Shown here one piece after another: positions 4,704 through 55,594 of a DNA stretch of 64,000 nucleotides. The notes beneath the pieces are model-generated. The model was not told where the DNA came from. It saw nothing but the letters and a program-made list of their open reading frames with translations, and made no database searches. The stretch is from Blastococcus sp. PRF04-17 (GTDB taxonomy: Bacteria; Actinomycetota; Actinomycetes; Mycobacteriales; Geodermatophilaceae). Every line of letters begins with the position of its first letter. Position 1 is the first letter of the stretch. Location: positions 310,001 to 374,000 of the forward strand of contig NZ_CP095412.1 of assembly GCF_023016265.1 (NCBI RefSeq), written 5' to 3'. The translations under genes and the position numbers were made by a program.

Positions 4704-5480
4704 TCACGCGTGGTGGTCGGAGAGATCCACGCGGGCGAGGTGGTCGGCGGTCAGGAAGGCGCGGCGCAGGTCGGCGCTGAGCCCGTCGAACGGAGACGTC
4801 TGCGACCGGTGCTCGGCCATGGCGGCCTCGCGCCGGTCGAGAACCGCGGTCGTGTCGAGGACGTCGGTGACGTCCTCGTCGGCCCGGCCCAGGGTCGCGG
4901 GGTCGAGGCCGTGGTAGGCGGTGTCCGGCCGCACCGACCGCATCTCGTCCAGCCACCGGCGCAGCAGGCTGTTGGGCAGGCAGTGCTCGTAGAGCGCCGG
5001 ACCCTGGGAGCCGGCGAGCGCGGCGCGCATGCCGGCCCGCACGTGCAGGTGGTCGCGGTGGCCGTCGCTGCCGTCGAGGACCACGACGACGTCCGGGCCG
5101 ATCTCCTCGACCAGCCGGCCCAGCACCACGGCGAGCTCGTCCACCGGCGCGGAGCACAGGGCCCCCGGGCCGCAGGCGCCGTCGAAGCCGGAGTCCCGGT
5201 AGCCGAGCAGCTCGAGGCGGGCCACGCCCAGGTGGCCGGCGGCCCGGCGCAGCTCGACCTCGCGGACGCTGCCGAGGTCCGTCCCGTGCGGCAGTTCGGC
5301 CGCCGGCTCGCCGGCCTCGCCCCGGGTGGCGCACACCACCGTGACCTCCGCGCCGCGCGTCGTCGCGTGGGCGATCGTGGAGCCGCACCCGAACGACTCG
5401 TCGTCCGGGTGCGCCACGGCGACCAGCCAGCGGTCACCGGGTTCGGGGTGCTGGAGGAGGTCGCGCGTCGTCCCGGTCAT
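4704..5480 (-). CDS. PIG-L family deacetylase (MshB/Mca-like)
   Basis: Zinc-dependent LmbE/PIG-L amidohydrolase of 258 residues. Members of this fold deacetylate GlcNAc-linked substrates or cleave mycothiol conjugates; the substrate here cannot be told. The metal-binding motif AHPDDE is at about residue 25, and the second metal ligand region is [12 protein letters not shown] at about residue 140. The ATG at 5480 overlaps the pgl stop by four bases (ATGA), pointing to translational coupling; a start 14 codons upstream would lie deeper inside pgl. It is the last gene of the tkt-to-pgl operon. The region between its end and the small-protein gene shows no further gene. Confidence 0.85.
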
Positions 5481-6243
5481 CGACCGGGCAGCATGCCCGC
5501 CGCGGCGCGGTCGAGCAACCACCTGGTGGCCCGCCGGCCGTGCACCCCTGCGGCGGGCAGCTCCGTCGGCTCGGCGCCGGCGACAGCGCGGGCCACCGCG
5601 GAGGCCTTGCCCTCGCCCGCGACCAGCAGCCAGACCTCCTCGGCCGAGTTGATCGCCGAGAAGCCGAGGCTGACCCGGGTCGGCGGCGGCTTGGGGCAGT
5701 CGCGCACGGCGACCACGGGCCGGTCGTCGGCGGCCGCGGGGGAGTCCGGGAAGATCGAGGCAACGTGCCCCTCGGCACCCATGCCGAGCAGCAGGACGTC
5801 GAACCGGGGGAGTGGGACGCCCGGCGGCGCCGCGGCGGCGAGCTGCCCCGCGTACCAGGCTGCCGCGTCCTCGGGCTCGGCGAACCCCCGTCGGAGGGCG
5901 GCATCGCGTGGATCCGGTGCTCGGGGACGCCCACCCGGCCCAGCAGCGCCTGGCGGGCCTGCTTCTCGTTGCGCTCGTCGCTCCCGGCGGGCACGAAGCG
6001 CTCGTCCCCCCACCAGAAGTCGACGTGCTCCCAGTCGACGGTCTCGCGGACCGGCTCGGCGGCCAGGCCCGCGACCTGCTCCAGCACGGCGGTCCCGATG
6101 CCCCCGCCGGTCAGGACGACCGACGCGCGGCCGTCGTGCACCGCCTGCGCGGCGGCCAGCCGGGCGACCAGCGCCTCGGCCACGACCCGCGCGAGCGCAT
6201 CGGCGTCCGGCTCGACGACCACGTCCGGGGTAGGTGCGCTCAC
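5477..6243 (-). pseudogene. pgl: 6-phosphogluconolactonase, frameshifted
   Basis: Hydrolyses 6-phosphogluconolactone in the oxidative pentose phosphate pathway. The N-terminal part starts at a GTG overlapping the opcA stop (GTGA) and reads [20 protein letters not shown], then [14 protein letters not shown] and [20 protein letters not shown] as far as [10 protein letters not shown]. The C-terminal part continues in another frame with [37 protein letters not shown] and [21 protein letters not shown]. The frames meet at the run of five C at 5885-5889 (plus strand); one extra base there restores a 255-residue protein of normal length. All active-site motifs are intact, so sequencing error is as likely as true inactivation. 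Confidence 0.85.
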
Positions 6244-7278
6244 GTCGCGGCAGCCTTCTTCCGGGGCTTGGTGCCCTGGCCGTTCTGCTCGGCGGGGTCG
6301 ACCCAGACGTGTTCGCGGGTCTCCTTGCGCTCGGCCAGCCCGGTCACGCCGGTCACCGCCTCGAGCGCGTCGCTGTAGGGCTCGTCCGGATCCAGCCGCC
6401 GCAGCTCCTCGCTGAGCAGGTCGCCGAGCACGCGCTCGGGCAGCGCCACCGTCGCGTCCGGCCGGTACGGCTGCTTGATCACGGCGCCACCCCGGCGGTC
6501 GGCGTGGATCTCCACCTCCTCGTCCTGGTCGAGCACGAGGACGACGGAGGAGACACCGCTCTCCCCGGGGCGGCGGTCGGTCGGCTCCACCGAGATCGGG
6601 CAGCCGCAGCGCGACGACAGCCACCCGGCCAGGAGCTGGGCGGTGGCGTTGCCCGGGTCGCCGGTCACGCTGCCGCCGCGTACCTCCACCGGGGCGCCGC
6701 GGCGGCCGGACACCGAGTCCAGCGTCGAGGCGAGGATCGCCCGCCACGCGGTGCTCCGCGTCCACGTCAGGTCCGTGTCGCCGGGGGCGTAGTCGGCGGC
6801 GCGGGTGCGCAGCGCCGCGATGCAGTCCTCGGCCATGGAGCTGTCGGTGATCCGCCGGTCGGCGAAGACCGCGAGCGCGTCGGTCGCCAACCGGTCCGGT
6901 GGCGGAGCGTGCCACCAGGCGACCACCGGCGCGTCGGCGGCCAGCAGCGGCAGCACCACCGACTCGGCGTGCAGCCCCAGCCCGGCCGTACATGCGCATC
7001 ACCACGGCCTCGCCCGGACCCAGCCGGCCACCGATCAGCACCTCGGCGTCCAGCCGCGGCACCGGGGCGTCGATCTGCCGGCGCACCACGATCAGCACCC
7101 GGCAGGGGTGCATCTCGGCGGCGTGCGTCGCCGCCTCCTCGGCCTCGGCGACCCGGCTCTCGTCGGCGACGACGATCAGCGTCAGCGCGACGCCGGACAG
7201 CACCGCACCGCCCGTGCGGCGCTGGGCGGCCAGCTCCTTGACGACGGCGGACCCGGTGGTGTCCCAGAGCGTGGTCAT
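6240..7278 (-). pseudogene. opcA: Glucose-6-phosphate dehydrogenase assembly protein OpcA, frameshifted
   Basis: OpcA associates with and activates the Zwf dehydrogenase in actinobacteria. The first part starts MTTLWDTTGSAVVKELAAQR at an ATG with AGGAGG about 8 bases upstream, and runs through CRVLIVVRRQIDAPVPRLDA to MRMYGR. The rest, in another frame, reads LHAESVVLPLLAADAPVVAW and ends in [11 protein letters not shown]. Removing one base from the CCC at 6981-6983 (plus strand) joins them as MYGRLGLHAES and gives about 345 residues, the normal size. It lies between zwf (25 bases away) and pgl (overlapping). The insertion may be a sequencing error. Confidence 0.85.
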
Positions 7279-7303
7279 GGCCTCGTCCTCCTCATGGGCG
7301 ACC

Positions 7304-8820
7304 TCATGGGCGGCGCCACCTCCGTCCCTCGGCGGCCAGCATCTCGTCGGCCGCCCGCGGGCCCCACTCGCCGGCCCGGTAGAGGTGCGGGGTCGTACCG
7401 GCCCAGAACTCCTCGAGCGGGTCGATGACCGCCCAGGACGCCTCCACCTCGGCGTTGCGGGGGAACAGCGTCGCGTCACCCAGCAGCACGTCGAGCAGCA
7501 GCCGCTCGTAGGCCTCCGGGCTGCTCTCGGTGAACTGCTCGCCGTAGAGGAAGTCCATGGACACGTCCCGGACCTCCATCACGCTGCCCGGGACCTTCGA
7601 CCCGAACTTGAGCGTGACCCCCTCGTCGGGCTGCACGCGGATGACCAGCTGGTTGTTGCCGAGTTCCTCGGTGTCGGTGTCGGCGAAGGGCAGGTGCGGC
7701 GCTCGCTTGAACACCAGCGCGATCTCGGTGACCCGGCGGGGCAGCCGCTTGCCGGTGCGCAGGTAGAACGGGACGCCGGCCCACCGGCGGGTCTCCACAC
7801 CGAGGCGGACGGCGGCGAAGGTCTCGGTCCTCGAGTCGGGGTCGACGCCCTCCTCCTCGCGGTAGCCCTTGGCCCGCTCGCCGGCCAGCCACCCCGGCTC
7901 GTACTGGCCCCTGACCGCGAAGGTGCCCATGTCCTCGGGCACCGAGATGGCCCGCAGCACCTTGAGCTTCTCGGTCCGGATCTCCTCCGCGGAGAACTCG
8001 ACCGGCTCCTCCATCGCGGTGAGCGCCAGCAGCTGCAGGAGGTGGTTCTGCAGGACGTCCCGGGCGGCGCCGGTCTTCTCGTAGAACTGGGCCCGCCCGC
8101 CGATGCCGACGTCCTCGGCCATCGTGATCTGCACCGAGTCGACGTGGTGGACGTTCCAGATCGGCTCGAACAGCTCGTTGGCGAACCGCAGGGCCATCAG
8201 GTTCTGGACGGTCTCCTTGCCCAGGTAGTGGTCGATGCGGAACACGTCGTCGGCGCTGAACACCGAGTCGACCAGCTCGTTGAGCTGGCGGCTGGAGGGC
8301 AGGTCCTCCCCGAACGGCTTCTCGACCACGACCCGGCGCCAGCGCTCGGGCGTGCTCTCGGCCATGCCGGTGCGCTGCATCTGCTTGAGCACCGTGGGGA
8401 ACATGGCCGGTGGGATGGACAGGTAGAACGCGGCGTTGCCGCCGATGCCCTGGCTCCCCTCGAGGTCGGCGAGGGTGGCGGCCAGGCTGTCGAAGGCGTC
8501 GTCGTCGTCGAACGAGCCCTGGATGAAGGTGATGTCGGTGGCCAGCTGCTCCCAGACGTCCTCGCGCCAGGGCGTACGGGCGTGCTCGCGGGCGGCTTTG
8601 CGGGCGAGTTCGGCGAAGTCCTGGTCCTCCCAGTCCCGGCGGGCGAAGCCGAGCAGGGCGAAGTTCGTCGGCAGCAGGCCGCGGTTGGCCAGGTCGTAGA
8701 CCGCCGGCAGCAGCTTCTTGCGGGCCAGGTCGCCGGTGATGCCGAACACCACCAGGGCGCACGGCTCCGGCACCCGGGGAGGCGTCGGTCGCGCGGGTCC
8801 CGCAGCGGGTTGGGGATCAT
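7304..8820 (-). pseudogene. zwf: Glucose-6-phosphate 1-dehydrogenase, frameshifted near the N-terminus
   Basis: First enzyme of the oxidative pentose phosphate pathway (glucose 6-phosphate to 6-phosphogluconolactone, making NADPH). The start MIPNPLRDPRDRRLP is typical of actinobacterial Zwf but lies in a different frame from the remaining 489 residues, which begin VPEPCALVVFGITGDLARKK (nucleotide-binding) and contain the active-site RIDHYLGKE and EKPFGEDL. One more base in the GGGG at 8776-8779 (plus strand) restores LPRVPEPCALVVFG and a 505-residue protein. Translation from the GTG at 8773 alone would still make an almost complete enzyme. Follows tal by 34 bases in the operon. Confidence 0.88.
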
Positions 8821-8854
8821 GGGGAGTCCTCGGTCCGGGGGCTCTGCACGCCCC

Positions 8855-9955
8855 TTACTTCTTGTCCTCGAGCTCGGTGCGCACCGACTCGGTGAGCTCG
8901 TCCCAGGAGTCCACGAACTTCTGCACGCCCTCGTCCTCGAGCACGCGGAAGACGTCGTCGAGGTCCACGCCGGCGTCGGCCACCGCCTGCATGACGGCGG
9001 CCGCGTCCTCGTAGGACTTCTGCACCGGGGTGCCCGGCTCGCCGTGGTCGGCGTAGGCCTTCATCGTCTTCTCCGGCATGGTGTTGACCGTGCCGGGCGC
9101 GATCAGCTCGGAGATGTACATCGTGTCCGAGTACTCGGGGTTCTTGACGCCGGTCGAGGCCCACAGCGGCCGCTGCGGGGCGGCCCCCTGGGCCTCCAGC
9201 GCCCGCCAGCGGTCGGAGGAGAAGACCTCCTCGTAGGCCTGGTAGGCCAGCTGGGCGTTGGCGATGCCCGCCTTGCCCTTCAGCGACGCGTCGGCGCCGC
9301 TCTTCTCCAGGCGCTTGTCGATCTCGGTGTCGACGCGGGAGACGAAGAAGGAGGCCACCGAGGCGATGCCCTCGAGCGACCCGCCGTTCGCCAGCCGCTT
9401 CTCCAGGCCGGAGAGGTAGGCGTCCATGACCGCGCGGTACCGCTCGAGGCTGAAGATCAGCGTGACGTTGACGCTGATCCCGTTGGCGATCGTCTCGGTG
9501 ATGGCCGGCAGCCCGGCCTCGGTCGCCGGGATCTTGATGTAGAGGTTGGGGCGGTCGACCAGCCACCACAGGTGACCGGCCTCGGCCGCCGTCGCGTCGG
9601 TGTCGTGCGCCAGCCCCGGGGCGACCTCGAGGGAGACCCGGCCGTCGCCGGGGGACATCTGCGCCACCGGCGCGAGCAGGTCGCAGGCGTCCCGGACGTC
9701 GGCGGCGGTGATGGTGCGCAGCGCCTCCTCGACGCTGACCTTGCGGACGGCCAGGGCGTGCAGCTGGTCGTCGTAGGACTCCGACCCGCTGATCGCCGCC
9801 GCGAAGATCGTCGGGTTCGTGGTGACGCCCACGACGGAGTGCTCGTCGACGAGCGACTGCAGGTTGCCGCTGCGGATGCGGTCGCGGGACAGGTCGTCGA
9901 GCCAGACGGCGACCCCTGCCTCGGAGAGCTCGGCCAGTTTCTCGTTCTGTGCCAT
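8855..9955 (-). CDS. tal: Transaldolase
   Basis: Transfers a dihydroxyacetone unit in the non-oxidative pentose phosphate pathway. The 366-residue product starts [20 protein letters not shown] and has [11 protein letters not shown], the Schiff-base lysine region [26 protein letters not shown] and [13 protein letters not shown], the pattern of the longer actinobacterial TalB-type enzymes. AAGGA precedes the ATG. It lies between tkt (35 bases) and zwf (34 bases). No pgi gene follows it, unlike in some relatives. Intact. Confidence 0.96.
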
Positions 9956-9990
9956 GTCTCGTGTCCTTCTCGATGGGTGGGGAGCGGGGT

Positions 9991-12201
<2,211 letters not shown>

Positions 12202-12320
12202 CTGGTGGGTGCTCCCTCGAGTTGGCCTGCGTCCTGCGGCTGAGCGTCCGTCCCGGGCCGGCGCTGGACCGGGAGCACGCCGTCGCTCTACCCGCTGCGC
12301 GCGCCGCAGCAACGCGATCA

Positions 12321-12379
12321 AGCCTAGTCATCACGGCCGATGCCGCAGCGCTGGGCGGCTGCCCCGGCCGGGCTACAGT
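12321..12379. promoter_or_regulatory. Divergent promoter region of tkt and ctaB
   Basis: A TAGGCT hexamer on the minus strand (12321-12326) faces tkt and TACAGT on the plus strand (12374-12379) faces ctaB. Both match TANNNT; -35 elements are not clear on either side. Confidence 0.35.
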
Positions 12380-12438
12380 GGCTCGGTCCCCGTCCCATGC
12401 TCGGAAGTAGGGCTAGTGCTGTTCAGGTCCGGCTCCCG

Positions 12439-13371
12439 GTGACGGCGCTCTCCGAACGCCGCGCCGAGGCGACCCGCCGGCCGCCGTCGGCCATCCGTAC
12501 CCGCGTCGGCGCGTACGTCGGGCTCACCAAGCCGCGGATCATCGAACTGCTGCTGGTCACCACGGTGCCGGCGATGATGCTGGCCGCGCGCGGCTGGCCG
12601 TCGCTCTCGCTGCTGCTGTTCACCCTGCTGGGCGGGACGCTGGCCGCCGGTGCCGCGAACGTCTTCAACTGCTGGTTCGACCGGGACATCGACCGGCTGA
12701 TGCAGCGGACCCAGAAGCGGCCACTGGTCACGGGGGCGGTCTCGCCGCGGGCGGCGCTGGTCTTCGGCGCGGTGCTGTCGGTCACGTCGGTGGTGCTGCT
12801 GGCGCTCACCACGACGCTGCTGGCCGCCGCGCTCGCGGCCGGGGCGATCTTCTACTACGCCGTCCTCTACACGATGGTGTTCAAGCGGCACACCCGCCGC
12901 AGCACCGAGTGGGGCGGCGTGCCCGGCGCCGCGCCGGTGCTGATCGGCTGGGCCGCGGTCACCGGCTCGCTGGACTGGCCGGCCGTCGTCGTGTTCGCCG
13001 TGGTCTGGTGCTGGCAGATGCCGCACTTCTGGGCGTTGGCGTTGCGGTTCAAGGCCGACTACGCGCGGGCCGACGTCCCGATGCTGCCGGTGGTGACCAC
13101 GGAGCTCTCGGTCGGCCGGCAGACGGTGGCCTGGGCCTGGATCACCGTCGCCGTCTCGCTGCTGCTGTGGCCGGTCGCGTCCGGCTACGGCATCGGGCTC
13201 GGCTACACGGTGCCGGCGGCACTCCTGGGGGCCTGGTTCGTCCTCGAGTCGCACCGGCTGCTCGGTCGGATCGCGCGCGGCGGCGAGACCAGGCCCATGC
13301 AGCTGTTCCACGTCTCGATCTCGTACCTGGCCCTGCTCATGGTCGCGATCGTCGTCGACGCCATCGTGTGA
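12439..13371 (+). CDS. ctaB: Protoheme IX farnesyltransferase (haem O synthase)
   Basis: Membrane prenyltransferase that farnesylates haem B to haem O for cytochrome oxidase. The 310-residue product has about eight or nine transmembrane segments, the prenyl-diphosphate motif NVFNCWFDRDIDRLMQRTQK followed by RPLVTG, and the second conserved loop FYYAVLYTMVFKRHTRRST. LTKPRIIELLL near the N-terminus is also typical. The GTG at 12439 is a best guess: upstream in-frame ATGs at 12340 and 12397 have no ribosome binding site and add a non-conserved leader. Transcribed divergently from tkt; its stop overlaps the next gene. Confidence 0.93.
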   Translation: MTALSERRAEATRRPPSAIRTRVGAYVGLTKPRIIELLLVTTVPAMMLAARGWPSLSLLLFTLLGGTLAAGAANVFNCWFDRDIDRLMQRTQKRPLVTGAVSPRAALVFGAVLSVTSVVLLALTTTLLAAALAAGAIFYYAVLYTMVFKRHTRRSTEWGGVPGAAPVLIGWAAVTGSLDWPAVVVFAVVWCWQMPHFWALALRFKADYARADVPMLPVVTTELSVGRQTVAWAWITVAVSLLLWPVASGYGIGLGYTVPAALLGAWFVLESHRLLGRIARGGETRPMQLFHVSISYLALLMVAIVVDAIV

Positions 13372-13655
13372 GCCGGCGCGACCTCGCCAACGCGCGCATG
13401 GGCCAGCTGGTCGGCGCCGACGGACGCACCTACTCGATCGTCGCGCCACGGATCGAGCGCGCCGAGATCGAGGAGCTGATCGAGGGCGGCCGGCCGGTGG
13501 TCACCTACTTCGCCGGCGGGCGGCTCGTCTGGCACGACGAGGACGACGCCTGGCCCGCCTGGTCCGACGCGCGCAGTGCACGCGAGACCGTCACCGGCGG
13601 CCGCTGGGAGTCACCCGACGGCGCGCAGGTCGTCGTCCTGGTCTGGCACGACTGA
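13368..13655 (+). CDS. Conserved hypothetical protein (95 residues) coupled to ctaB
   Basis: I do not recognise the family. The product starts at a GTG overlapping the ctaB stop (GTGA), so translation is probably coupled. It begins VSRRDLANARMGQLVGADGR, has no membrane segment, and carries an aromatic/acidic stretch FAGGRLVWHDEDDAWPAW and a C-terminal VVVLVWHD. The soluble character and position after haem O synthase suggest a link to haem or oxidase biogenesis, but that is inference from context only. A bidirectional hairpin follows its stop. Confidence 0.6.
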   Translation: MSRRDLANARMGQLVGADGRTYSIVAPRIERAEIEELIEGGRPVVTYFAGGRLVWHDEDDAWPAWSDARSARETVTGGRWESPDGAQVVVLVWHD

Positions 13656-13688
13656 CGCGTCGCCGGAACTTGCCGAGATCGCGCTCGG

Positions 13689-13716
13689 ACCGGTATCCCG
13701 AGCTGCGGATACCGGT
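13689..13716. terminator. Bidirectional hairpin between convergent genes
   Basis: Perfect 10-base arms ACCGGTATCC and GGATACCGGT with an 8-base loop, in the gap between the small gene after ctaB and the convergent ctaA. There is no T-run, as is common for terminators in this group. Confidence 0.7.
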
Positions 13717-13744
13717 TCCAGGGCACTCTCGCTGCCTCGGCGGG

Positions 13745-14671
13745 TCAGCGGGTGGCCGCTGCCTGCGGCGTCGCGGGGGTGAGCGGCAGTTCGGACACCG
13801 GGCCGCGGACGGACCACACGAGCCGTGCCGTGTAGGCGGTGACGAGGACGGCGCCCAGCATGTGCAGCAGCACGAGGAGCACCGGCAGGTCGGTGAAGTA
13901 CTGGACGTACCCGACGACCCCCTGTGCCAGCTGGACGATCAGCAGGTCGCGGGCCGCCCGGCGGACGCGGTCGGGGGAGTCGGTGGCGTGCAGCGCCACG
14001 AGCAGCGCGACGGTCAATCCGAGCAGGAGGAACACGACGTCGGCGTGCACCTGGCTGGCCAGCTCGGGGTCGAAGCCCGTCCGGCCGGCCTCCGGGTCGC
14101 CGCTGTGCGGGCCGCTGCCGGTCACGACCGTCCCGACCGCGAGGACGACGGCGGTGACGGCCGCGATGCCGTTCACCAGCAGCACGAAGGGACGGCGCAG
14201 CAGCGGCTGACCGACGCCGGGCTCGCGCGAGCGCAGCCACAGCACGGTGGTGATGGCGACGAGAACCATCGAGACGAGGAAGTGCGCCGCGACGGTCCAC
14301 GGGTTGAGGCCGGTCAGCACGGTGACGCCCCCGAGCAGCGCCTGCGCCGGGATGCCGAGGAAGGCCAGGACGGCGAGGGCGCGCAGGTCCCGGCGCGCCG
14401 ACCGGAACACCACGACGACGGTCGCGATGGCGACGGCGGTCAGCACGAACGTGAGCAGCCGGTTGCCGAACTCGATCGCGCCGTGCCCCGCCAGCTCGGG
14501 CGTGGCGACGAAGCTCTCGTCGGTGCAGCGCGGCCAGGTCGGGCAGCCCAGCCCCGAGCCGGTGAGCCGCACCGCGCCGCCGGTGATGACGATGACGCCG
14601 TTGGCGACCGCGTTGGCCAGCGCCACCCGGGAGACGGCGGCGGGGGAGAAGGCGGTGGGCAGGACCGGCAC
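13745..14671 (-). CDS. ctaA: Haem A synthase (COX15/CtaA)
   Basis: Membrane oxidase that converts haem O to haem A for aa3-type cytochrome oxidase. The 308-residue product has eight predicted transmembrane segments and the haem-binding histidines expected of the family, for example ELAGHGAIEFGNRLLTF, NPWTVAAHFLVSM, ASQVHADVVFLL and LLVLLHMLGA. The loop cysteine pair region GLGCPTWPRC is present near residue 43. Start is a GTG with a -10-like TAGCAT seven bases upstream, so the mRNA is probably leaderless. Convergent with ctaB, with which it acts. Confidence 0.95.
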   Translation of the reverse strand: MPVLPTAFSPAAVSRVALANAVANGVIVITGGAVRLTGSGLGCPTWPRCTDESFVATPELAGHGAIEFGNRLLTFVLTAVAIATVVVVFRSARRDLRALAVLAFLGIPAQALLGGVTVLTGLNPWTVAAHFLVSMVLVAITTVLWLRSREPGVGQPLLRRPFVLLVNGIAAVTAVVLAVGTVVTGSGPHSGDPEAGRTGFDPELASQVHADVVFLLLGLTVALLVALHATDSPDRVRRAARDLLIVQLAQGVVGYVQYFTDLPVLLVLLHMLGAVLVTAYTARLVWSVRGPVSELPLTPATPQAAATR

Positions 14672-14678
14672 GGCGTCG

Positions 14679-14694
14679 ATGCTATGCGGTGCGC
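14679..14694 (-). promoter_or_regulatory. Leaderless promoter element of ctaA
   Basis: On the minus strand the sequence reads GCGCACCGCATAGCAT, with TAGCAT (14679-14684) ending seven bases before the GTG start. The 14-base block GCGCACCGCATAGC is identical in sequence and in distance to the start codon to one in front of the gene at 45920-46891. Confidence 0.6.
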
Positions 14695-14778
14695 CCCGGC
14701 GGTGAGCCTGGTCACGACGGCCGCCCTGTCGGCGGCGTTGTTAGGGCAGCCTTGGTTGCGAGGTCCTCGAAATAGGAC

Positions 14779-14793
14779 ACACTTGTGTTGTGG
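14779..14793 (+). promoter_or_regulatory. Candidate SufR operator
   Basis: ACACT-N5-TGTGG overlaps the proposed sufR start codon. It differs by one base from the ACACT-N5-TGTGA site reported, as I recall, for mycobacterial SufR. Its position over the start region suits autorepression of the suf operon. Confidence 0.5.
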
Positions 14794-15554
14794 AAACCGT
14801 CGCGACGAACCGGCCGGCACCTGCCGACGACCGTCGCACGCGCGACCGCGTGAGCGCGCTCCTCCTCGAGCACGGTCCGCAGACCGCCGCCGAGCTCGCC
14901 GTGCTGCTCGGCATCTCGCCGGCGGCCGTCCGCCGGCACCTCGATGCGCTGCTGGCCACCGGCCGGGTCGAGGAGCGGCTCACGAGGGAGGCGCACCGGG
15001 GCCGCGGCCGCCCGGCCCGCCGCTTCCACCTGACCGATGCCGGCCGCTCGGCGTTCCCGCACGCCTACGACGACCTCGCGCTGACCGCCCTGCGCCAGGT
15101 GGCGGCGCTGGGCGGGCCGGACGCCGTCCGTGCCGTCGCCGAGGCGCAGATGGCGGGCCTGGAGGCCCGTGCGTCCACGGCCGTCGCCGGGGCCGGCGAC
15201 CGGGCGCAGGCCCTCGCGGCCGCGCTCACCGCCGAGGGCTACGCTGCCACGGCCTCGGCGATCTCCAGCGGGGGGCAGCTCTGCCAGCACCACTGCCCGG
15301 TGGCGCACGTGGCCGCGGAGTTCCCCCAGCTGTGCGAGGCCGAGACCGCGGTGATCGGCCGGCTCGTGGGCACCCACGTGCAGCGGCTGGCCACGATCGC
15401 CCACGGCGACGGGATCTGCACCACACACATCCCCGGGCCCCTACGGCCCGGGTCACAGCGCGCGGGGAACAGAACAGTCCCGCAGCGCCCTGTACCTGAC
15501 ACACCCCGCACCGCCGCACCCGCAAGGCCCGAACGGGAGAGGACGCCCGCATGA
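14790..15554 (+). CDS. sufR: SufR-type iron-sulfur transcriptional repressor
   Basis: ArsR/DeoR-like winged-helix repressor heading the suf operon; its relatives bind an Fe-S cluster and repress suf when clusters are plentiful. Residues 25-60 form the helix-turn-helix ([20 protein letters not shown]) and a basic wing follows ([14 protein letters not shown]). The C-terminal half has clustered cysteines [21 protein letters not shown] and a fourth in [10 protein letters not shown], the likely cluster ligands. After that comes a Pro/Arg-rich tail. The GTG start at 14790 overlaps a candidate SufR box; a start further downstream cannot be excluded. The stop overlaps sufB by ATGA. Confidence 0.88.
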
Positions 15555-18608: not shown

Positions 18609-20688
<2,080 letters not shown>

Positions 20689-24805: not shown

Positions 24806-26957
24806 TCAGCGCATCTGGGCCACCCAGGCGACCGCCTCGCGGGCCTGCTGGCGCCGGCGCTCGTAGGTGGCGCCCACGACGAGCAGCAGCAGCCCGGCGG
24901 CGCCCAGCGTGATCCAGCGGGGCAGCAGGGGCGCGTAGGGCGACAGGCGGCCGACCACCACTCCGAGCAGCGCACCGGTGCCGAGCAGGAACGGTGCCTG
25001 GCGGTGCAGCAGCGTGCCGGCCACGGCCAGCGCCGCGGCGGCGCCGACGACCAGCACCAGCCGGAGCGCCGTCGGGTCGGCGACGACCACGAACGCCGAC
25101 GGCAGCAGCGCCACGCCGGCGGCGGCACCCTCGGCCGCCCAGGACCGCGCGCCGGCCCGGAGGGAGGGGAGCGCGATCAGGAGGAGCCCGGCAGCGGCGG
25201 GCAGCGTGTAGGCCTCCGGCGTTCCCACACCGGCGCCGCCCACCGCGATCCAGCTCGCCGCCACCAGGTCGGCGACGGCCACGACCGCGACCGGCCACCG
25301 CCCGGCCACCAGCGCATAGCAGCCGGCCGCGACGCCGGCCACCGTGAGCTGCAGGCCCACCTGGCCCCATGCTCCGGCCGACGCGGTGACCGCTCCCGCC
25401 GTCGCGCCCGCGGCCGCACCGGCCCACGTGCACACCCACTCCTCGGGCCGGCCGGTGCGCAGCGTGGCGACGGCGAAGGCGGCAGCAGCCAGGAGGGCCA
25501 GCAGCAGCCCGGCGACAGTCGACGGCAGGACGTCGTCGGCACGGGCCAGCAGGACCGCCACGTAGGGCGCGCCGAGCGCGACCGCGGTCGCCTGGCCGCG
25601 CAGTCGCGGCAGGCGGACCGCGGCCACCGTCGCCGGCACGACACCGCACAGCGCGACCAGGGCCAGCTCGGCGTACCGGGCGTCGTCGGCCAGTCGCGCG
25701 CCGGGCAGCAGCACCAGGACCGCTCCGGCCGCGACCAGCAGCGCGACCAGGCCCGGACGCCGGGACACCAGCGCCCCGGCGGTCAGCAGTGCCAGCCCGA
25801 GGCCGGCGGCGAGCAGCGGCCCGGCGTCCCCGGTCGTGGCCAGCGAACCGGCCAGCGCCGCCCCGAGGACGACACCGACGCCGCCGGGCACGACCTCCGG
25901 GAACCGGGACCCGCTCCGGACGGCAGCGAGGGCGGCTGCCCCGGCGAGGGCGAGGACGCCGGTCGCGGCCCACGACTCGGCCGGGTCGGCGCCGAAGGCG
26001 CTGCCGAGGCCGAGCAGGACCCCCACCGCGGTCCACAGGCCGGCGAGCACCCGCGCGAGCGGCCCGACCGACCGCCGCACCGCCCGGGCGGCGACGACGT
26101 CCGCAGCGGCCACCGCGAGAGCGACCGCCGCGCCCACCGGGCCGATGAGCAGCTTCCCGGTCAGCGCCAGGAAGGGCAGTGGCTGGGCGGCGAGCAGGGC
26201 GACCACCGGCCAGGTCACCGTGCTGCGGGTCAGCCGGGCGAGGGCGAGGGCGGCGCCCAGGACGACCGCGCAGGAGATCGCCCACCAGCCGCGCAGCTGC
26301 ACGTCCTCGATCGCGAAGAGGCCCAGGGCCCGGGCGGCGGCGAGGTCGACGACGAGGAGCGCGGCGCCGGCGGCGGCGAGGGCCTCCTCGGTGGCGCGCA
26401 GCCCGCGGCGCGGTGAACGCGGAGACGCCGCAGGCCAGGGCCGTGGCGGTCAGCATCACGGCGACCTGGAACACCGGCCCGAAGCGGGTCCACGCCCACG
26501 CGACGAAGGTGACCGCCGCGGCCACGACCAGCAGCGCGCCGAGACCGCCCAGGACCTGCTGCGGGGCGATCCGCCGCCGGGGCGGCCGGGCGGGCGGGCT
26601 CCACGGCGGCGGGGGAGGCGGACCGGCCAGGGGCGGAGGGGGCGACGTCACCCGGGGCGGCGTCGCCCGGGGCGGCGTCGCCCGGGGCGGCGGGACCGAG
26701 GCGTGCTGCGGGGGCGCCCACCCCGGGGCGCCGACCGGCACCGATGCCGCCCAGGGAGCGGCCGCGCGCAGCGACGCCAGGAGCTGGTCGCGGTCGCGGG
26801 CGAGGTCGGCCATGGTGGCGCCGATCCGCGCCACGACCTCGGCGGCGTGCGCGGCGGCCGGCAGGCCGCAGTTCGGGCACGGGCCGGGCCCGGTGTCGCC
26901 GGTGGGCCGTCCGCAGACGGGGCAGGGCAGGCCCCACGCGCTGCCGGGCGGGTTCAT
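24806..26957 (-). pseudogene. Zinc-ribbon multi-pass membrane protein (SCO7613 C-terminal-domain type), frameshifted
   Basis: Begins MNPPGSAWGLPCPVCGRPTG with a four-cysteine zinc ribbon (CPVC, then CPNC), then a coiled helix (AEVVARIGATMADLARDRDQ), a proline-rich linker with tandem repeats, a basic patch (ARPPRRRIAPQQVL) and about 20 membrane segments. The first 185 residues are in one frame up to ATALACGVSAFTA; the rest, from about LRATEEALAAAGAALLVVDL to the stop, is in another. Removing one base near 26404-26412 restores about 716 residues. The C-terminal half is homologous to the next gene downstream. Large actinobacterial proteins with this plan exist, but the function is unknown. Confidence 0.75.
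26649..26693. repeat. Three 15-base tandem repeats in a proline-rich linker
   Basis: Three adjacent near-identical units of the form CGCCCGGGGCGGCGT encode PPRAT, PPRAT and PPRVT in the linker between the zinc ribbon and the membrane part of the minus-strand gene. The first unit differs at one base and the last at its final base. Confidence 0.85.
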
Positions 26958-31886: not shown

Positions 31887-32351
31887 GTGACGGCAGCACA
31901 CCCGGAGGACGCCCGGATCCGGGCCCTCTACGCCGCGTTCCTCGACGGCTGGAACCGGCGCAGCGGCGCGGCGGTGGCGGCCGGGTTCGCCGACGACGGG
32001 GACATCATCGGTTTCGACGGCAGTCATCACCGGGGCAGGCTGTCCATCGCCGCCGATCTCCGGCAGGTCTTCGGCAGCCACCAGACGGCCGCGTACGTCG
32101 GCATCGTCCGGTCCGTGCGGCCGATGGCGCCGGGCGTCGCCGTGCTGCTGGCGCACGCCGGCATGATCCCGCCCGGCGAGAACGACTTCGATCCGCAGCT
32201 GCACACCGTGCACACCCTCGTCGCGGTCGACGAGGGCGGCGGCCGGTGGCGGATCTCGCTGCTGCAGGCGACCCCCGCTGCCTGGCACCAGCACCCCGAC
32301 GCACGCGAGGCGCTGACCGAGGAGCTCCGCGGCCTGCTCGCTCCGCAGTGA
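31887..32351 (+). CDS. SnoaL/NTF2-like (SgcJ/EcaC type) protein
   Basis: A 154-residue protein with the cone-shaped NTF2-like fold pattern: an N-terminal helix pair (EDARIRALYAAFLDGWNRRS), FADDGDIIGFDGSHHRGRLS, then strands such as VAVLLAHAGMIPPG and HTVHTLVAVDEGGGRWRISL. This matches the SgcJ/EcaC family often annotated as oxidoreductases although many have unknown activity. GTG at 31887 is preceded by GGAGGAG. Its stop overlaps the rhodanese start (GTGA), so the two are made together; the biological link is unknown. Confidence 0.8.
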   Translation: MTAAHPEDARIRALYAAFLDGWNRRSGAAVAAGFADDGDIIGFDGSHHRGRLSIAADLRQVFGSHQTAAYVGIVRSVRPMAPGVAVLLAHAGMIPPGENDFDPQLHTVHTLVAVDEGGGRWRISLLQATPAAWHQHPDAREALTEELRGLLAPQ

Positions 32352-33195
32352 GCGTGCTCGTCTCCGCCGCGGAGCTGCTGGCCGCCGAACCTCGGCCGGT
32401 CCTGCTCGACGTCCGCTGGGCGCTGGGGGACGACCGCGGCCGGGAGAAGTACCTCGCGGGTCACCTGCCGGGCGCCGTCTTCGTCGACCTGGAGTCGGAG
32501 CTGGCGGATCCGCCCTCGGCGGAGCAGGGCCGGCACCCCCTGCCGTCGGTGCAGCGACTGCAATCAGCCGCGCGACGGTGGGGCATCCGCGACGGCGACG
32601 CCGTGGTCGCCTACGACGCCACCGGCGGACTGGCGGCGGCGCGGGCATGGTGGCTGCTGCGGTGGGGTGGGCTCCGCGACGTGCGGCTGCTGGACGGCGG
32701 GCTCGACGCGTGGGTGCGGGCGGCGGCGCGCTCGAGAGCGGGGACGTCCGGCCCGAGCCGGGGGACGTCACCCTGACCGGTGGCGGCATGCCGGTGCTGA
32801 CCATCGACGAGGCGGCGGCCCTGCCCGGTTCCGGCGTGCTGCTCGACGCGCGAGCGGGGGAGCGCTACCGGGGCGAGGTCGAGCCGATCGACCCGCGGGC
32901 AGGCCACGTGCCCGGCGCGGTCAGCGCGCCCACCACCGAGAACCTCGCGGCCGACGGCACCTTCCGGCCGGCCGCCGAGCTGGCCGAGCGGTTCGCCGCC
33001 CTGGGCGCGCGCCGCGGGACGACCGTCGGTGTCTACTGCGGCTCCGGTGTGACCGCCGCCCACGAGGTCGCGGCGCTGGCCGCGGCCGGCGTCGAGGCGG
33101 CACTGTGGCCGGGCTCGTGGTCGCAGTGGTCGGCCGACCCGGACCGCCCGGCGGCGACCGGCACCTCGCGGGGCGAACAGGACGATTCGCCCTGA
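32348..33195 (+). pseudogene. Thiosulfate/3-mercaptopyruvate sulfurtransferase (two rhodanese domains), frameshifted
   Basis: Two-domain rhodanese that moves sulfane sulfur to an acceptor. The first domain (LLDVRWALGDDRGREKYLAG, HLPGAVFVDLESELADPPSA, VVAYDATGGLAAARAWWLLR, LLDGGLDAWV) is in one frame and the second, catalytic one (LLDARAGERYRGEVEPIDPR, HVPGAVSAPTTENL, active-site loop VGVYCGSGVTAAHE) in another. Adding one base in the GGG at 32718-32720 restores a 282-residue protein, normal for the family, with its catalytic cysteine intact. The GTG start overlaps the preceding gene. A sequencing error is the simplest reading. Confidence 0.85.
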
Positions 33196-42417: not shown

Positions 42418-42442
42418 ACCGGGCCTGCCCCCGGACATGAGG

Positions 42443-42476: not shown

Positions 42477-42695
42477 GAGAGCAAGGCTAGCAGCCACCAC
42501 CCCCTCCGGGCAGGGGTGTGGACACGGCTCGGCGCTCGTTTCCGCGCCGTGCCGAGGCGGCCGTCCCCGCCTCGGCGGCGTCCGCCCACGGCGCCCAGGA
42601 AGGTGTAGGACACTGGGCTCCGGGGCGGGCCGCGCCGTCCCGTCGACGGCTCTCCCGTGCCGGGAGGACGTGGACCGGCACGACCAGGGAGTTCC

Positions 42696-43889: not shown

Positions 43890-44923
43890 TCCTCCGTCGT
43901 CGCGGGGCCGCGGACCCGCCGGCCCCACCCCCGCCGGCCGAGCACCGGGGGCTGCTGCTGCACCCGGCGACGCCCGGTTCGGGCGTCGACCCGGGTGCGG
44001 GTGACGGGGCGCCGCCGCGGTTCACCGACGGCCCCGCCGACGTGCTGCTGCGGCGTCTCGAGCTCACCGTGCGCCGGCGCCTCGACGGCCTGCTGCAGGG
44101 CGACCACCTGGGTCTCGTGCCCGGTTCCGGCTCGGAGGCCGGCGACTCGCGCACCTACCACCCGGGGGACGACGTCCGCCGCATGGACTGGCCCGTGACG
44201 GCGCGCACCCAGGTGCCCCACGTCCGGGAGACCATCGCCGACCGCGAGCTCGAGACGTGGGCGGTGGTCGACCTGTCCGCGAGCCTCGACTTCGGCACGG
44301 CCAACTGCCAGAAGCGCGACCTGGCCATCGCCGGCCTGGCCGCGGTGGGACACCTCACCGTGCACGGCGGCAACCGGCTCGGCGCCGTCGTGACCACGGG
44401 CGAGCAGGTGACCCGCCACCCGGCGATGCCCGGGCGACTGGCCGCCGAGCGGCTGCTGCGCTCGGTGGTGGCGACCCCGCGGGCGGCCGGCGGCCGGCGC
44501 GGGGACCTGGCGGCGGCGCTGGAGTCGCTGCGCCGGCCCCCGCGGCGGCGCGGGCTGGTCGTCGTGATCTCCGACTTCCTGGGCGACCTCGACTGGGAGC
44601 GGCCGCTGCGCGGGCTGTCGACCCGGCACGAGCTGCTGGCGATCGAGGTGGTGGATCCGCGGGAGCTGGAGCTGCCGGATGTCGGCCTGCTGACGGTTGT
44701 GGACCCGGAGAGCGGGCAGACCCTGGAGGTGCCGACCGGCAACCCCGAGTTCCGCGAGCGGTTCGCCGCCGGCGCGGCGGCGCAGCGGCGGGAGATCGCC
44801 GCCGCCCTGCGCCGGGCCGGGGCCGGTCACCTGCAGCTGCGCACCGACCGGGACTGGCTCATGGACGTCGTCCGGTTCGTCGCCGACCGCCGCCGGGCCG
44901 GCAGCGGGGGAGCGTCGCGATGA
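43886..44923 (+). CDS. DUF58 domain protein
   Basis: A 345-residue cytoplasmic protein of the DUF58 family that always travels with MoxR ATPases. The signature block is GSGSEAGDSRTYHPGDDVRR then MDWPVTARTQVPHVRET; after it comes a vWA-like fold beginning TWAVVDLSASLDFGTANCQK. The N-terminal 50 residues are Pro/Gly-rich. The GTG overlaps the moxR stop (GTGA) and its stop overlaps the VWA gene (ATGA), so all three are translationally coupled. The molecular role of DUF58 is unknown. Confidence 0.92.
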   Translation: MILRRRGAADPPAPPPPAEHRGLLLHPATPGSGVDPGAGDGAPPRFTDGPADVLLRRLELTVRRRLDGLLQGDHLGLVPGSGSEAGDSRTYHPGDDVRRMDWPVTARTQVPHVRETIADRELETWAVVDLSASLDFGTANCQKRDLAIAGLAAVGHLTVHGGNRLGAVVTTGEQVTRHPAMPGRLAAERLLRSVVATPRAAGGRRGDLAAALESLRRPPRRRGLVVVISDFLGDLDWERPLRGLSTRHELLAIEVVDPRELELPDVGLLTVVDPESGQTLEVPTGNPEFRERFAAGAAAQRREIAAALRRAGAGHLQLRTDRDWLMDVVRFVADRRRAGSGGASR

Positions 44924-45876
44924 TCTTCCAGGCACCGCTGTGGCTGCTGGCACTGCTCGCCGTCGTCGCGCTCGTCGCCCTGTACGTCGTGCTGCAGCTG
45001 CGCCGCAAGGCGTACGCGGCGCGGTTCACCAACGTGGCGCTGCTCGGCTCGCTCGTGCCGAGGCGCCCGGGCTGGCGGCGGCACCTGGCCTTCGCCGTCG
45101 TCGCGCTCGGCCTGGCGACCCTGGTCGTCTCCCTGGCCCAGCCCAGCACCGAGGTGCGGGTGCCGCGCGAGCGGGCGACGGTGGTCATGGCCGTCGACGT
45201 GTCGCTGTCGATGCAGGCCACCGACATCGAGCCCGACCGCTTCCGCGCCATGCAGACCGCGGCCAAGGAGTTCGTCGAGGTGCTGCCCGAGCGGATCAAC
45301 CTGGGGCTGGTGTCCTTCGCCGGGACGGCGACCACGCTGGTGCCCCCCACGACCGACCGCCAGCAGGTCGTCGGCGCCATCGACAACCTGGACCTCGCGG
45401 AGTCGACGGCGATCGGCGAGGCGGTGTTCACGTCGCTGACCGCGATCGAGAACTTCCAGTCCACCCTGGACGCCGGGGAGGCCGAGGAGGTGCCGGCGCG
45501 GATCGTGCTGCTCTCCGACGGCTACAACACCGTCGGCCGCGAGGACACGCAGGCGATCGACGCCGCCCGGGCCGCCGGCGTGCCGGTCTCGACGATCGCG
45601 TTCGGCACCGACTACGGCACGCTCGACCTGGACGGCGAGACGGTGCCGGTGCCGGTCGACCGGGCCACGCTGGAGAACATCGCCGAGCAGACCGGCGGCA
45701 GCTACAGCGAGGCCGCCAGCGCCGCCGAGCTCGAGCAGGTGTACGCCGACCTCGGCAGCCAGATCGGGTACACGACCGAGCCGCAGGACATCAGTCCGTG
45801 GTTCGTCCGCGGTGGCGTCGCCCTGGCGCTGCTGGGCGCCGTCCTCAGCCTGCTCTGGACCAACCGCCTGGTGTAG
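44920..45876 (+). CDS. BatA-like von Willebrand factor A membrane protein
   Basis: A 318-residue protein with two N-terminal membrane segments (about residues 7-25 and 55-75), an extracytoplasmic VWA domain (about 85-290) and a C-terminal anchor (about 295-312). The MIDAS metal motif is VMAVDVSLSMQATD (D-x-S-x-S), with the later T and D in SFAGTATTL and VLLSDGYNTVG. This is the BatA arrangement. Partner of the MoxR ATPase and DUF58 protein. ATG overlaps the DUF58 stop. No batB/batD-type gene follows; a bidirectional terminator comes next. Confidence 0.9.
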   Translation: MIFQAPLWLLALLAVVALVALYVVLQLRRKAYAARFTNVALLGSLVPRRPGWRRHLAFAVVALGLATLVVSLAQPSTEVRVPRERATVVMAVDVSLSMQATDIEPDRFRAMQTAAKEFVEVLPERINLGLVSFAGTATTLVPPTTDRQQVVGAIDNLDLAESTAIGEAVFTSLTAIENFQSTLDAGEAEEVPARIVLLSDGYNTVGREDTQAIDAARAAGVPVSTIAFGTDYGTLDLDGETVPVPVDRATLENIAEQTGGSYSEAASAAELEQVYADLGSQIGYTTEPQDISPWFVRGGVALALLGAVLSLLWTNRLV

Positions 45877-45918
45877 GCGGAGTGGTACGGGCGCGTTATC
45901 CGCGCCGTCCCACTCCGC
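45877..45918. terminator. Bidirectional terminator between convergent genes
   Basis: Two nested paired blocks: GCGGAGTGG with CCACTCCGC, and GGCGCG with CGCGCC around the loop TTATC. Lies directly after the VWA stop and just before the stop of the convergent oxidoreductase gene. Confidence 0.8.
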
Positions 45919-45919
45919 A

Positions 45920-46891
45920 TCAGCGGGCCGGGTCGAGGACGAGCTTGCCGGTGGTCCGACGGGCGAGCAGGTCCTGGTGGGCGTCGCGGACGTTCGACAG
46001 CGGATAGCGGCCGCCGACGATCGGCCGCAGCGAGCCGTCGGCGACCATGGGCAGCAGCTCGCCCATCGCGGCGTCGAGCAGCTGCGGCCGGGCCATGCAG
46101 TGCGCCAGCCAGAAGCCGATGACCGCCCGGCTCCGCTGCATCAGCGCCCCCGGCGGCACGGCCTTCGTCTCCTGCCGGGCGGCCATGCCGTAGGTGACCA
46201 GCCGGCCGAAGGGGGCCAGTGCCGACAGCGATCCGGCGAAGACGTTGCCTCCGGTCATCTCCAGCACGATGTCGACCGGCTTGCCGCCGTTGGCCTCGCG
46301 CAGCGCACCGGTGAACTGCTTCGGGTCGTCGTCGGCCAGCGCCGGGTCGACGGTGGCGTCGGCGCCGAGCTCCTCGGTGAGCGCCCGCTTCTCGGGGCTG
46401 GACGCGGTGGCGATGATCCGCCCGGCGCCCCACCGCTTGGCCAGCTGGACGGCGAGGCTGCCGACCCCGCCGGCGCCGGCGATCACCACGACCGACTCGC
46501 CCTCGGCCAGGTGCGCGCTGGTGCGCAGCAGGTGCCACGCGGTGGCGCCCTGCAGGACGACGGCCAGCGCCTGCTCGTCGCTGACGCCGTCCGGCACCGG
46601 CCAGGTGAGGAAGTCGTGGGCGACCGCCTTCTCGGCGTAGCCGCCGCCGTCGAGCAGGCCGACCACTCGCCGGCCCCCGCCCACCGGCGTGCCGACGAAC
46701 TCGGCGCCCGGCACGAGGGGCAACTGCTGCGCGGCCAGGTAGGAGTTCTCGATCTGGTGGGTGTCGGCGTAGTTGATGCCCGCCGTGGAGACGTCGTACA
46801 GCGTCTGGCCCGCCCCCGCCTCCGGCTCGGCGATGTCGACGACCTCGAGGACCTCCGGACCGCCGAAGCGGGTGATCTGCACGGCACGCAT
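45920..46891 (-). CDS. Quinone oxidoreductase-type MDR family reductase
   Basis: A 323-residue zinc-free medium-chain dehydrogenase/reductase that would use NADPH to reduce quinones or enones. N-terminal MRAVQITRFGGPEVLEVVDI, GINYADTHQIENSYL, PLVPGAEFVGTPV, and the cofactor motif VVVIAGAGGVGSLAVQLAKR; the helix LQGATAWHLL precedes it. No catalytic zinc ligands. ATG start with -10-like TAGCCT seven bases upstream and no ribosome binding site, so probably leaderless. The 14-base upstream block is shared with ctaA. Ends at a bidirectional terminator. Confidence 0.93.
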   Translation of the reverse strand: MRAVQITRFGGPEVLEVVDIAEPEAGAGQTLYDVSTAGINYADTHQIENSYLAAQQLPLVPGAEFVGTPVGGGRRVVGLLDGGGYAEKAVAHDFLTWPVPDGVSDEQALAVVLQGATAWHLLRTSAHLAEGESVVVIAGAGGVGSLAVQLAKRWGAGRIIATASSPEKRALTEELGADATVDPALADDDPKQFTGALREANGGKPVDIVLEMTGGNVFAGSLSALAPFGRLVTYGMAARQETKAVPPGALMQRSRAVIGFWLAHCMARPQLLDAAMGELLPMVADGSLRPIVGGRYPLSNVRDAHQDLLARRTTGKLVLDPAR

Positions 46892-46898
46892 GTCCGGC

Positions 46899-46914
46899 AG
46901 GCTATGCGGTGCGC
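46899..46914 (-). promoter_or_regulatory. Leaderless promoter element of the quinone oxidoreductase gene
   Basis: On the minus strand GCGCACCGCATAGCCT, with TAGCCT (46899-46904) seven bases before the ATG. The first 14 bases are identical to those before ctaA. Confidence 0.6.
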
Positions 46915-46936
46915 ACGGGGCGCTGCAGCGGGCTCC

Positions 46937-51421
<4,485 letters not shown>

Positions 51422-51442
51422 CGGCGCTCGGGCGAGCCCGCC

Positions 51443-52916
<1,474 letters not shown>

Positions 52917-52917
<1 letters not shown>

Positions 52918-53699
52918 TGAGCGGCAGCGACGGGATCCTGGCGGGCAAGAACGTCTTGGTGACCGGCGTCCTGACGGAGGCGTCGATCGCGTTCGCCACC
53001 GCCCGGATCGCCCAGGAGCAGGGCGCGACCGTCGTGCTCTCCAACTTCGGGCGGGCACTGTCGCTGTGCCAGCGGATCGCCAAGCGCCTGCCGCAGGAAG
53101 CCGCCGTCGTCGAGCTCGACGTCACGAACACCCAGCACCTGTCGACCCTCGCCGACCGGCTGCGCGAGCAGGGCTTCGACCGCCTCGACGGCGTCGTCCA
53201 CTCCATCGGCTTCGCGCCGCAGGAGGCCATGGGCGAGGGCTTCCCCGAGGTCGCGTGGGAGCACGCGGCCACGGCGTTCCAGGTGTCGTCGTGGTCCTAC
53301 GCCTCGCTGACCCAGGCCTGCCGTCCGCTGCTGGGCAACCCGTCGTCGGTCGTGGGGCTGACCTTCGACGCCTCGGTCGCCTGGCCGGTGTACGGCTGGA
53401 TGGGCGCGGCCAAGGCGGCGCTGGAATCGGTGAGCCGGTACGTGGCCCGCGAGCTCGGCCCCGAGGGCATCCGGTCGAACATCGTCGCCGCCGGGCCGCT
53501 GCGCAGCATGGCCATGAAGTCCATCCCGGGCAGCGCCCAGTTCGAGGAGGCGTGGGAGGGCCGCGCCCCGCTGGGCTGGTCGGTCACCGACACCGAGCCC
53601 GCCGGAAAGGCAGTCGTCGCCCTGCTGTCGGACTGGTTCCCCGCCACCACCGGCGAGATCGTGCACGTCGACGGAGGGTTCCACGCCGTCGGTGTGTAG
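52917..53699 (+). CDS. fabI: Enoyl-[acyl-carrier-protein] reductase (InhA/FabI type)
   Basis: Last step of the fatty-acid elongation cycle, NADH-dependent. The 260-residue product has NVLVTGVLTEASIAFATARI, GVVHSIGFAPQEAMGEGF, the active-site block SVAWPVYGWMGAAKAALESV (Tyr-x6-Lys, as in InhA) and RSNIVAAGPLRSMAMKSIPG. The ATG shares one base with the fabG stop. InhA-like by the sequence around the active site. Followed 54 bases later by the ferrochelatase gene, as in mycobacteria (mabA-inhA-hemZ). Confidence 0.95.
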
Positions 53700-53753
53700 G
53701 GCCCTCGGCGTGTGACCTGCATCCGCCCGCACCGCTCAGGGAGAAGACCACCC

Positions 53754-54899
53754 GTGCCCCGCGCCACCGTCGACATCACGCCCGCAGGCCAGCGCCCCGA
53801 CGAGGACCCCTCCCTCGCCGTCCGCAACAACGGCGGTGTCCCGCCGTCCTCCGAACCGGCGCCGTCCGGACGACGGGAGGCGCTGCTCGTCCTCTCCTTC
53901 GGCGGACCCGAGGGGCACGACGACGTGATGCCGTTCCTCGAGAACGTGACCCGCGGCCGGGGCATCCCGCGGGAGCGGCTGGAGGAGGTGGCCGAGCACT
54001 ACCACCACTTCGGCGGCGTCAGCCTGATCAACGAGCAGAACAAGGCGCTGATCGCGGCCGTGGAGAAGGAGCTGGCCGCGGCCGGTCTGGACCTGCCGGT
54101 CTACTGGGGCAACCGCAACTGGGCGCCCTACGTCGAGGACACCTGGGCGCAGATGGCCGCCGACGGCATCGAGCACGTCTACGTCTTCGCCACCTCGGCC
54201 TACGCCTCGTTCTCCGGCTGCCGGCAGTACCACGAGGACATCGCGCGGGCCCGCGTGTCCTCCGGTGGGGGGCCGACGGCGGAGAAGCTGCCGCACTACT
54301 TCGACACCCCCGGGTTCGTCCAGGCCAACGCCGACGCCCTCGCAGCGGCGATCGGCTCGCTGCCCGAGGACCTGCGGGGAACCGCCCGGCTGGTCGCGAC
54401 GGCGCACAGCATCCCCGACGCCATGGCCGCCGTCGCCGGGCCGCAGGGCCACGCCTACGAGGCCGAGCTCATGGCGGCCGCGGAGCGGGTCGTGGCGGAG
54501 GCGGCACCGGGCCGGACGTTCGACCTGGTGTGGCAGAGCCGCAGCGGTCCGCCGTCCGTGCCGTGGCTCGAGCCGGATGTGAACGACCACCTGCGCACGC
54601 TGGCGGCCTCCGGCGAGACGGCCGTCGTCCTCTTCCCGATCGGCTTCGTCAGCGACCACCTCGAGGTGATCTGGGACCTGGACAACGAGGCGAAGCAGAC
54701 CGCCGAGGAGCTGGGCCTGGCCTTCGCCCGAGCGGCGACGGCGGGCACGCACCCGGCGTTCGTCGAGTCGGTCCGCCTCCTGCTGGAGGAGCGCCGCGCG
54801 GGAGGACTCCCGCGCCTGGGCACCGACTGCCCGGCGTCATGCTGTTTCGTTCGTCGCCCTGTCGGGCGACACGGCGGCCAGGAGCCGTCCCCCCGCTGA
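53754..54899 (+). CDS. hemH: Ferrochelatase (coproporphyrin type)
   Basis: Inserts Fe2+ into the porphyrin; in actinobacteria it acts on coproporphyrin III in the coproporphyrin-dependent route. The 381-residue product has an about 45-residue disordered N-terminus, then ALLVLSFGGPEGHDDVMPFL, VYWGNRNWAPYVEDTWAQMA, the catalytic histidine in LVATAHSIPDAM, and FPIGFVSDHLEVIWDLDNEA. Cysteines in FSGCRQY and DCPASCCF match the positions of the [2Fe-2S] ligands of actinobacterial ferrochelatases. GTG start. Follows fabG-fabI in the same direction. Convergent with the hemerythrin gene. Confidence 0.93.
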   Translation: MPRATVDITPAGQRPDEDPSLAVRNNGGVPPSSEPAPSGRREALLVLSFGGPEGHDDVMPFLENVTRGRGIPRERLEEVAEHYHHFGGVSLINEQNKALIAAVEKELAAAGLDLPVYWGNRNWAPYVEDTWAQMAADGIEHVYVFATSAYASFSGCRQYHEDIARARVSSGGGPTAEKLPHYFDTPGFVQANADALAAAIGSLPEDLRGTARLVATAHSIPDAMAAVAGPQGHAYEAELMAAAERVVAEAAPGRTFDLVWQSRSGPPSVPWLEPDVNDHLRTLAASGETAVVLFPIGFVSDHLEVIWDLDNEAKQTAEELGLAFARAATAGTHPAFVESVRLLLEERRAGGLPRLGTDCPASCCFVRRPVGRHGGQEPSPR

Positions 54900-54959
54900 G
54901 CTCCGCCGCTTCCTCGCTCCTGCGCGGAGCCCTGCGGGTCCCACTCGGCGCGACCTCCG

Positions 54960-55594
54960 TCATCTCCGCCAGGCGGGGGCGATCTCCTTCGTGTAGCGGC
55001 GGCCGAAGACCTTCGTCAGGACCGTGACCACGGGGGGCGGGAGCTGCGTGCGGAGGAACGCCCGGTCGTCGTCGGTATCCCGTCGGTCAGCCAGGCGAAG
55101 AACCGGCCGCCGACCCCCGGGGACACCGCCCGCAGCTTCTTCTCCACCGCCTTCCACTCGGGCGTCCCGAGGTGCGGCCGCAGCGCCGGCTCCAGCTCGT
55201 CCTCCTCGTGGGCCAGGTGCCGGTCGACGACCGCCCGGGTCCGGCCGACGCTCGCGCGGGCCGCTGCGGCGTCCGTGGCCGACGCGGTGTCGGAGAACCG
55301 CGTCATCGCGGCGGACGTCTCGGCGAGCGCGTCGGCCATGGCGTGGTGCTCCGCTTCCATCGCGCGCAGCAGCTCGGGGGAGACGCCCGCCCGCTCGAGC
55401 ATGGGCCAGATGTGGGTGTCCTCGCCCTCGTGGTGGTGGGTCAGCTCCAGCCGGAGGTTCGCGTAGGCGCGGGCCAGTTCCGCGGCACGCGCCCGGTCGC
55501 CGTCGGAGACCTGACCCAGGGCGGCGTCCAGCCGATCCAGGTCACGGCGGACGGCGGCGTGGATCAGCCGGTTCATCGTCATCGGCGCGGTCAT
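54960..55594 (-). pseudogene. Hemerythrin (HHE) domain protein, frameshifted
   Basis: Non-haem di-iron protein that would bind O2, NO or iron. The main part of about 170 residues has HAAVRRDLDRLDAALGQV, ELTHHHEGEDTHIWPMLERA, AEHHAMADALAETSA and VDRHLAHEEDELEPALRPHL, giving the HHE ligand set. It then runs into a non-coding frame after FFAWLTDG. The true tail (DTDDDRAFLRTQLPPPVVTV then FGRRYTKEIAPAWRR) is in another frame; one extra base in the CCC at 55079-55081 restores 211 residues. The iron ligands are all upstream of the shift. The start is leaderless-like (TAGCCT eight bases upstream). Eleven bases after the upstream gene. Confidence 0.82.

Follow-up and report, generated by a model that had tools for sequence, protein, structure and literature searches.

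The window, i.e. the whole stretch of 64,000 nucleotides that was analysed, comprises bases 310,001-374,000 of a genome assembled as a single contig of 4,585,415 bases. The best named matches of the zwf protein encoded in the window, with identities of up to 93%, are from Blastococcus and other Geodermatophilaceae, and from this grouping we take the organism to be, most likely, an actinobacterium of the soil or stone type. The G+C content of the window ranges from 70 to 78% along its length (about 74% overall). ARAGORN found no tRNA gene in the window, and nothing in it matched Rfam at the gathering score. The estimated completeness of the genome is 95.89% (one contig) vs 99-100% for the majority of the better-kept relatives, although these are in 4 to 90 contigs. 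At the level of listings, the literature on Blastococcus and Geodermatophilaceae contained no recognisable paper for this assembly. Seven genes of the window change reading frame once:

5477..6243, minus strand, pgl (6-phosphogluconolactonase), frame change near 5885-5889
6240..7278, minus strand, opcA (glucose-6-phosphate dehydrogenase assembly protein), frame change near 6978-6983
7304..8820, minus strand, zwf (glucose-6-phosphate dehydrogenase), frame change near 8776-8781
24806..26957, minus strand, zinc-ribbon membrane gene, frame change near 26404-26414
32348..33195, plus strand, two-domain rhodanese (sulfurtransferase), frame change near 32718-32721
46937..47739, minus strand, metallo-beta-lactamase-fold hydrolase, frame change within about 47467-47545
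54966..55594, minus strand, hemerythrin-domain gene, frame change near 55077-55081, close to the gene end

All seven one-base frame changes described in the original prediction are present, close to the places proposed, and intact homologues span each junction. An automated tblastn search of the window with proteins from relatives recovered five of them (pgl, opcA, the membrane gene, the rhodanese and the hemerythrin-domain gene); both frames were spanned by proteins of 4, 5, 2, 4 and 1 relatives, respectively (as many supporting queries). With frame-aware alignment, six junctions came to lie no more than about 5 bases from the predicted positions, barring one of the three queries for the membrane gene. 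The pgl junction was localised with 8 queries; the place of the junction was agreed upon by 8 of 8 queries for both opcA and zwf, by 4 of 4 for the rhodanese, and by 2 of 2 for the hemerythrin-domain gene, the last two being overlapping stretches from one relative. For the membrane gene, two of the three queries agreed within 3 bases and the third was ~30 bases off. Pfam domains were found on the downstream pieces of pgl (PF01182), opcA (PF10128 and PF20171) and the metallo-hydrolase (PF00753), on each of the two pieces of the rhodanese (PF00581), and in the hemerythrin-domain gene (PF01814). Homologues cover ~54 of the 64 kb of the window, and a further break may lie in the remainder.

The break in zwf is too close to the gene start for the tblastn test and was judged from the N-termini: the initial ~15 codons are out of frame with the remainder, and the gene was in a single frame in 5 of the 5 relatives read. 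Outside the window the genome has another, distant gene like zwf (41% identity; G000:C1:839978-841321), so loss of the window zwf would leave a copy. The junction of the metallo-hydrolase is not among the six placed by frame-aware alignment. Five homologue loci were taken from a sample of 200 genomes of the order; at four of these one protein spans both window frames (overlap about 47326-47548), and the fifth (L179) yielded no query, as no match to the search motif was found there. The frame of the metallo-hydrolase changes in the same sense as that of pgl, and the six localised sites are short (4) or long (2) by one base, which fits the five losses and two gains that had been proposed. The metallo-hydrolase gene (46937-47739) had no high-similarity match in the other 15 genomes of the genus searched, and the best matches of its downstream piece (55-66% identical) are from other genera of the order; the pattern suggests that the gene may be patchy or acquired.

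Alignment with close relatives had been proposed as a check of the seven sites. It was made by tblastn on regions of 74 kb around zwf from five genomes of the same genus, with genes predicted by a codon model. All predicted proteins were compared with each region, and a break was scored where a protein continued in another frame on the same strand. The syntenic 74-kb regions of the five relatives hold 0, 0, 0, 0 and 1 breaks, against which the window has more than chance would give. The sample of the present genome (592 kb) consisted of the window with 72 kb on its downstream side, 56 kb surrounding rpoB, and 20 evenly spaced stretches of 20 kb; stretches of five relatives served as control (given as 1,012 kb, in which two overlaps of 2 kb, in G001 and G003, are counted twice). 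Judged by homology, there were 12 breaks in 157,675 covered bases here vs 1 in 423,488 in the five relatives (P = 1.5e-6), the 12 excluding zwf and the metallo-hydrolase, which were detected by other means. These counts were left after 1 of 13 clusters here and 6 of 7 in the relatives had been dropped. The dropped clusters came via query L040, in which a frame change has joined zwf to opcA (1 of 13 here, 5 of 7 in the relatives), or via the fused rplD-rplW query of the present genome (1 of 7 in the relatives, in G003r). In the relative G006, a gene that we take from its sequence to be of the sir2 type has one frame change found in this relative only (position 51219 of joined L099-L102), and is either a real pseudogene or an isolated error.

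A homology-free scan, in which coding frames that switch without a nearby stop were searched for, gave 60 sites in 592 kb here vs 17 in 1,012 kb of controls (P = 2e-13). Over the 20 stretches the mean was 2.15 sites with a variance/mean of 1.04, which looks random; the mean of 20 control stretches was 0.4. The rate here is about 10 per 100 kb, and the excess extrapolates to ~390 sites genome-wide. The scan is imperfect: its 7 matches in the window comprise 5 true sites and 2 extra switches within the membrane gene, and zwf and the metallo-hydrolase were missed. Proteins of the five relatives were also run against 80 named loci surrounding zwf, of which 79 were unbroken, the exception being L040; this test is blind to breaks near gene ends, and the loci are not all independent of the queries (at least L003 and L033 seem, by their equal lengths, to be the contigs G003:C2 and G006:C42).

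The decisive observation is that genes that cannot be dispensed with are split as well. In the ribosomal region, rpoA is divided over two frames, and its two sides match a relative at 99% and 95% identity; Pfam searches showed one copy in each of five genomes, split only here and whole in 4 of 4 relatives. The same holds for metG, whose one copy is split in this genome, while each of the four relatives searched has it intact; other matches to the family are partial and lie in other genes. No cell lives without the alpha subunit of RNA polymerase or methionyl-tRNA synthetase, and therefore at least the breaks in rpoA and metG must be absent from the organism, or bypassed. A gene of the cysteinyl-tRNA-synthetase family (about 417 residues in a relative), which we presume to be mshC, and a presumably TatD-type gene are also split. 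Outside the window, in the joined stretch L107-L109 (about 24946-26250), the gene taken to be rplD shifts frame in its tail and continues into what we take to be rplW; the apparent L4-L23 fusion is probably an artefact. Genes that are whole include rpoB (open frame), rpoC (called length 1301 residues) and valS, genes presumably of the ileS and leuS types (open-frame length), and two dnaE-type genes as far as the searched domain extends.

All 13 localised sites in this genome are off by one base, 11 short and 2 long. In-frame nonsense codons with good flanking similarity were absent from 154,785 covered bases here; the count was also zero in the relatives (411,810 covered bases), and the test is not calibrated on a truly decaying genome. 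The proposed location of the window sites in G/C runs is true at the sites, but this is weak evidence by itself, since a run of at least 3 lies within 8 bases of 56% of random positions. The nearby runs of the 13 localised sites have a mean length of 3.46 vs 2.77 at random positions (P = 0.003); for the 7 localised sites outside the window alone the mean was 3.29, short of significance (P = 0.08). A five-base C/G run was present within 20 bases of 17 of the 53 scan sites outside the window (3.8 expected) and of 1 of the 17 control scan sites (1.25 expected). Among words of 4 to 7 letters around 62 sites the strongest were CCCCC, CCCCGG and CTCCCC, i.e. C/G runs, with words of the GCCGCC type weaker; some window positions in this word test were those of the original prediction, which possibly favours runs. 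When the run test was repeated with localised positions and sites outside the window only, the run statistics shifted slightly, and the relative standing of the explanations did not change. The sites in rpoA and rplD have no run longer than 2. The idea that one motif underlies the sites, e.g. through a base modification misread in base calling, was also considered and rejected, as no clean modification motif emerged from the word test.

We are very confident that the seven frame changes are residual single-base insertion and deletion errors of an under-polished assembly; the breaks are almost certainly an artefact and not a biological feature. For the most part, short C/G runs would have been miscounted and left in place by consensus polishing, and the genes are most likely intact in the living bacterium. 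We infer a sequencing error because slips occur all over the assembled genome, even in indispensable genes, and we likewise infer that read errors or polishing lie behind the slips and that the assembly was made from long reads of low accuracy. What marks assembly error was found, i.e. a randomly spread genome-wide excess at an even rate, indispensable genes (rpoA, metG) that are split, and one-base changes at short runs, with a bias to C/G and an excess of losses; the marks of decay, i.e. nonsense codons alongside the indels and essential genes spared, were not. Nor did the relatives show breaks at corresponding places. The preference of the original prediction for a sequencing or polishing error over decay is thus supported. 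Against this reading, real slippage mutations also favour runs. The many essential genes that are whole can be counted against it too, yet a random error rate would also leave such genes. True recent pseudogenes, lost in a lineage under relaxed selection or prone to slippage, are very improbable. The breaks do stand in the deposited sequence, indels in runs are a common natural mutation, and a relative too has one clean break (the sir2-type gene of G006), but rpoA and metG are split, nonsense codons are lacking, the break in rpoA is flanked by 99% and 95% identity to a relative, and the breaks are evenly spread; it is implausible that a genome lost hundreds of genes recently and at once while showing no other decay. 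A selected loss of the pentose-phosphate genes was rejected, as the rate in the window (7 scan matches in 64 kb) equals that elsewhere (53 in 528 kb) and essential genes are split too.

There is a small chance that the window holds a mixture of mostly errors and, among the seven, one or a few real mutations. The relatives do have some background (1 break by homology in 423,488 covered bases), and the metallo-hydrolase, for which the other 15 genus genomes searched gave no match of high similarity, may be dispensable; the overall rate of the genome, however, predicts seven breaks in 64 kb, so that no extra real ones are needed. Rescue of really broken genes by programmed or pervasive slippage of the ribosome or RNA polymerase is extremely unlikely. 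Words made of C/G runs are over-represented at the sites, as expected of a slippery signal, but the contexts differ such that no single signal is common to the sites, both directions occur, and the relatives hold the same genes in one frame (79 of the 80 zwf loci unbroken, the other broken elsewhere). We attach next to no credence to a Blastococcus-like strain that truly carries hundreds of breaks, essential genes included, and survives by slippage of the polymerase or ribosome on C/G runs.

Errors of the preferred kind have parallels. Spurious pseudogenes from assembly error are documented by Cooley and Wright (2024, PMC11017572). As there, one assembly carries many apparent frameshifts throughout, its relatives do not, and the frameshifts are attributable to assembly errors; unlike there, the present case was judged from the assembled sequence alone. 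Long-read drafts are described in the Kastor report (PMC12007338) as having gene-fragmenting, mostly single-base false deletions after short homopolymers. One-base losses at short homopolymers predominate here as well, but A/T runs dominate in the Kastor example, whereas C/G runs do so here, in a window of about 74% G+C. According to the Homopolish paper (PMC8011154), read-based polishing leaves systematic homopolymer indels, and the present case resembles those given there in that indels shift the frame of coding genes and inflate pseudogene counts. As a warning about data quality, inferences of lost function from this assembly (e.g. a defective oxidative pentose-phosphate branch) are unsafe, and the same holds for pseudogene counts and for fusions such as the apparent rplD-rplW. 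Similar cases can be tested cheaply by checking if essential genes present in one copy are split at an equal rate.

The one broken locus among the 80 around zwf, L040, is from Blastococcus sp. TML/M2B. It has three breaks in about 13 kb (at 1360, 5275 and 7378), at positions that differ from those in the window, and from this pattern its assembly looks as if it shares the same defect.
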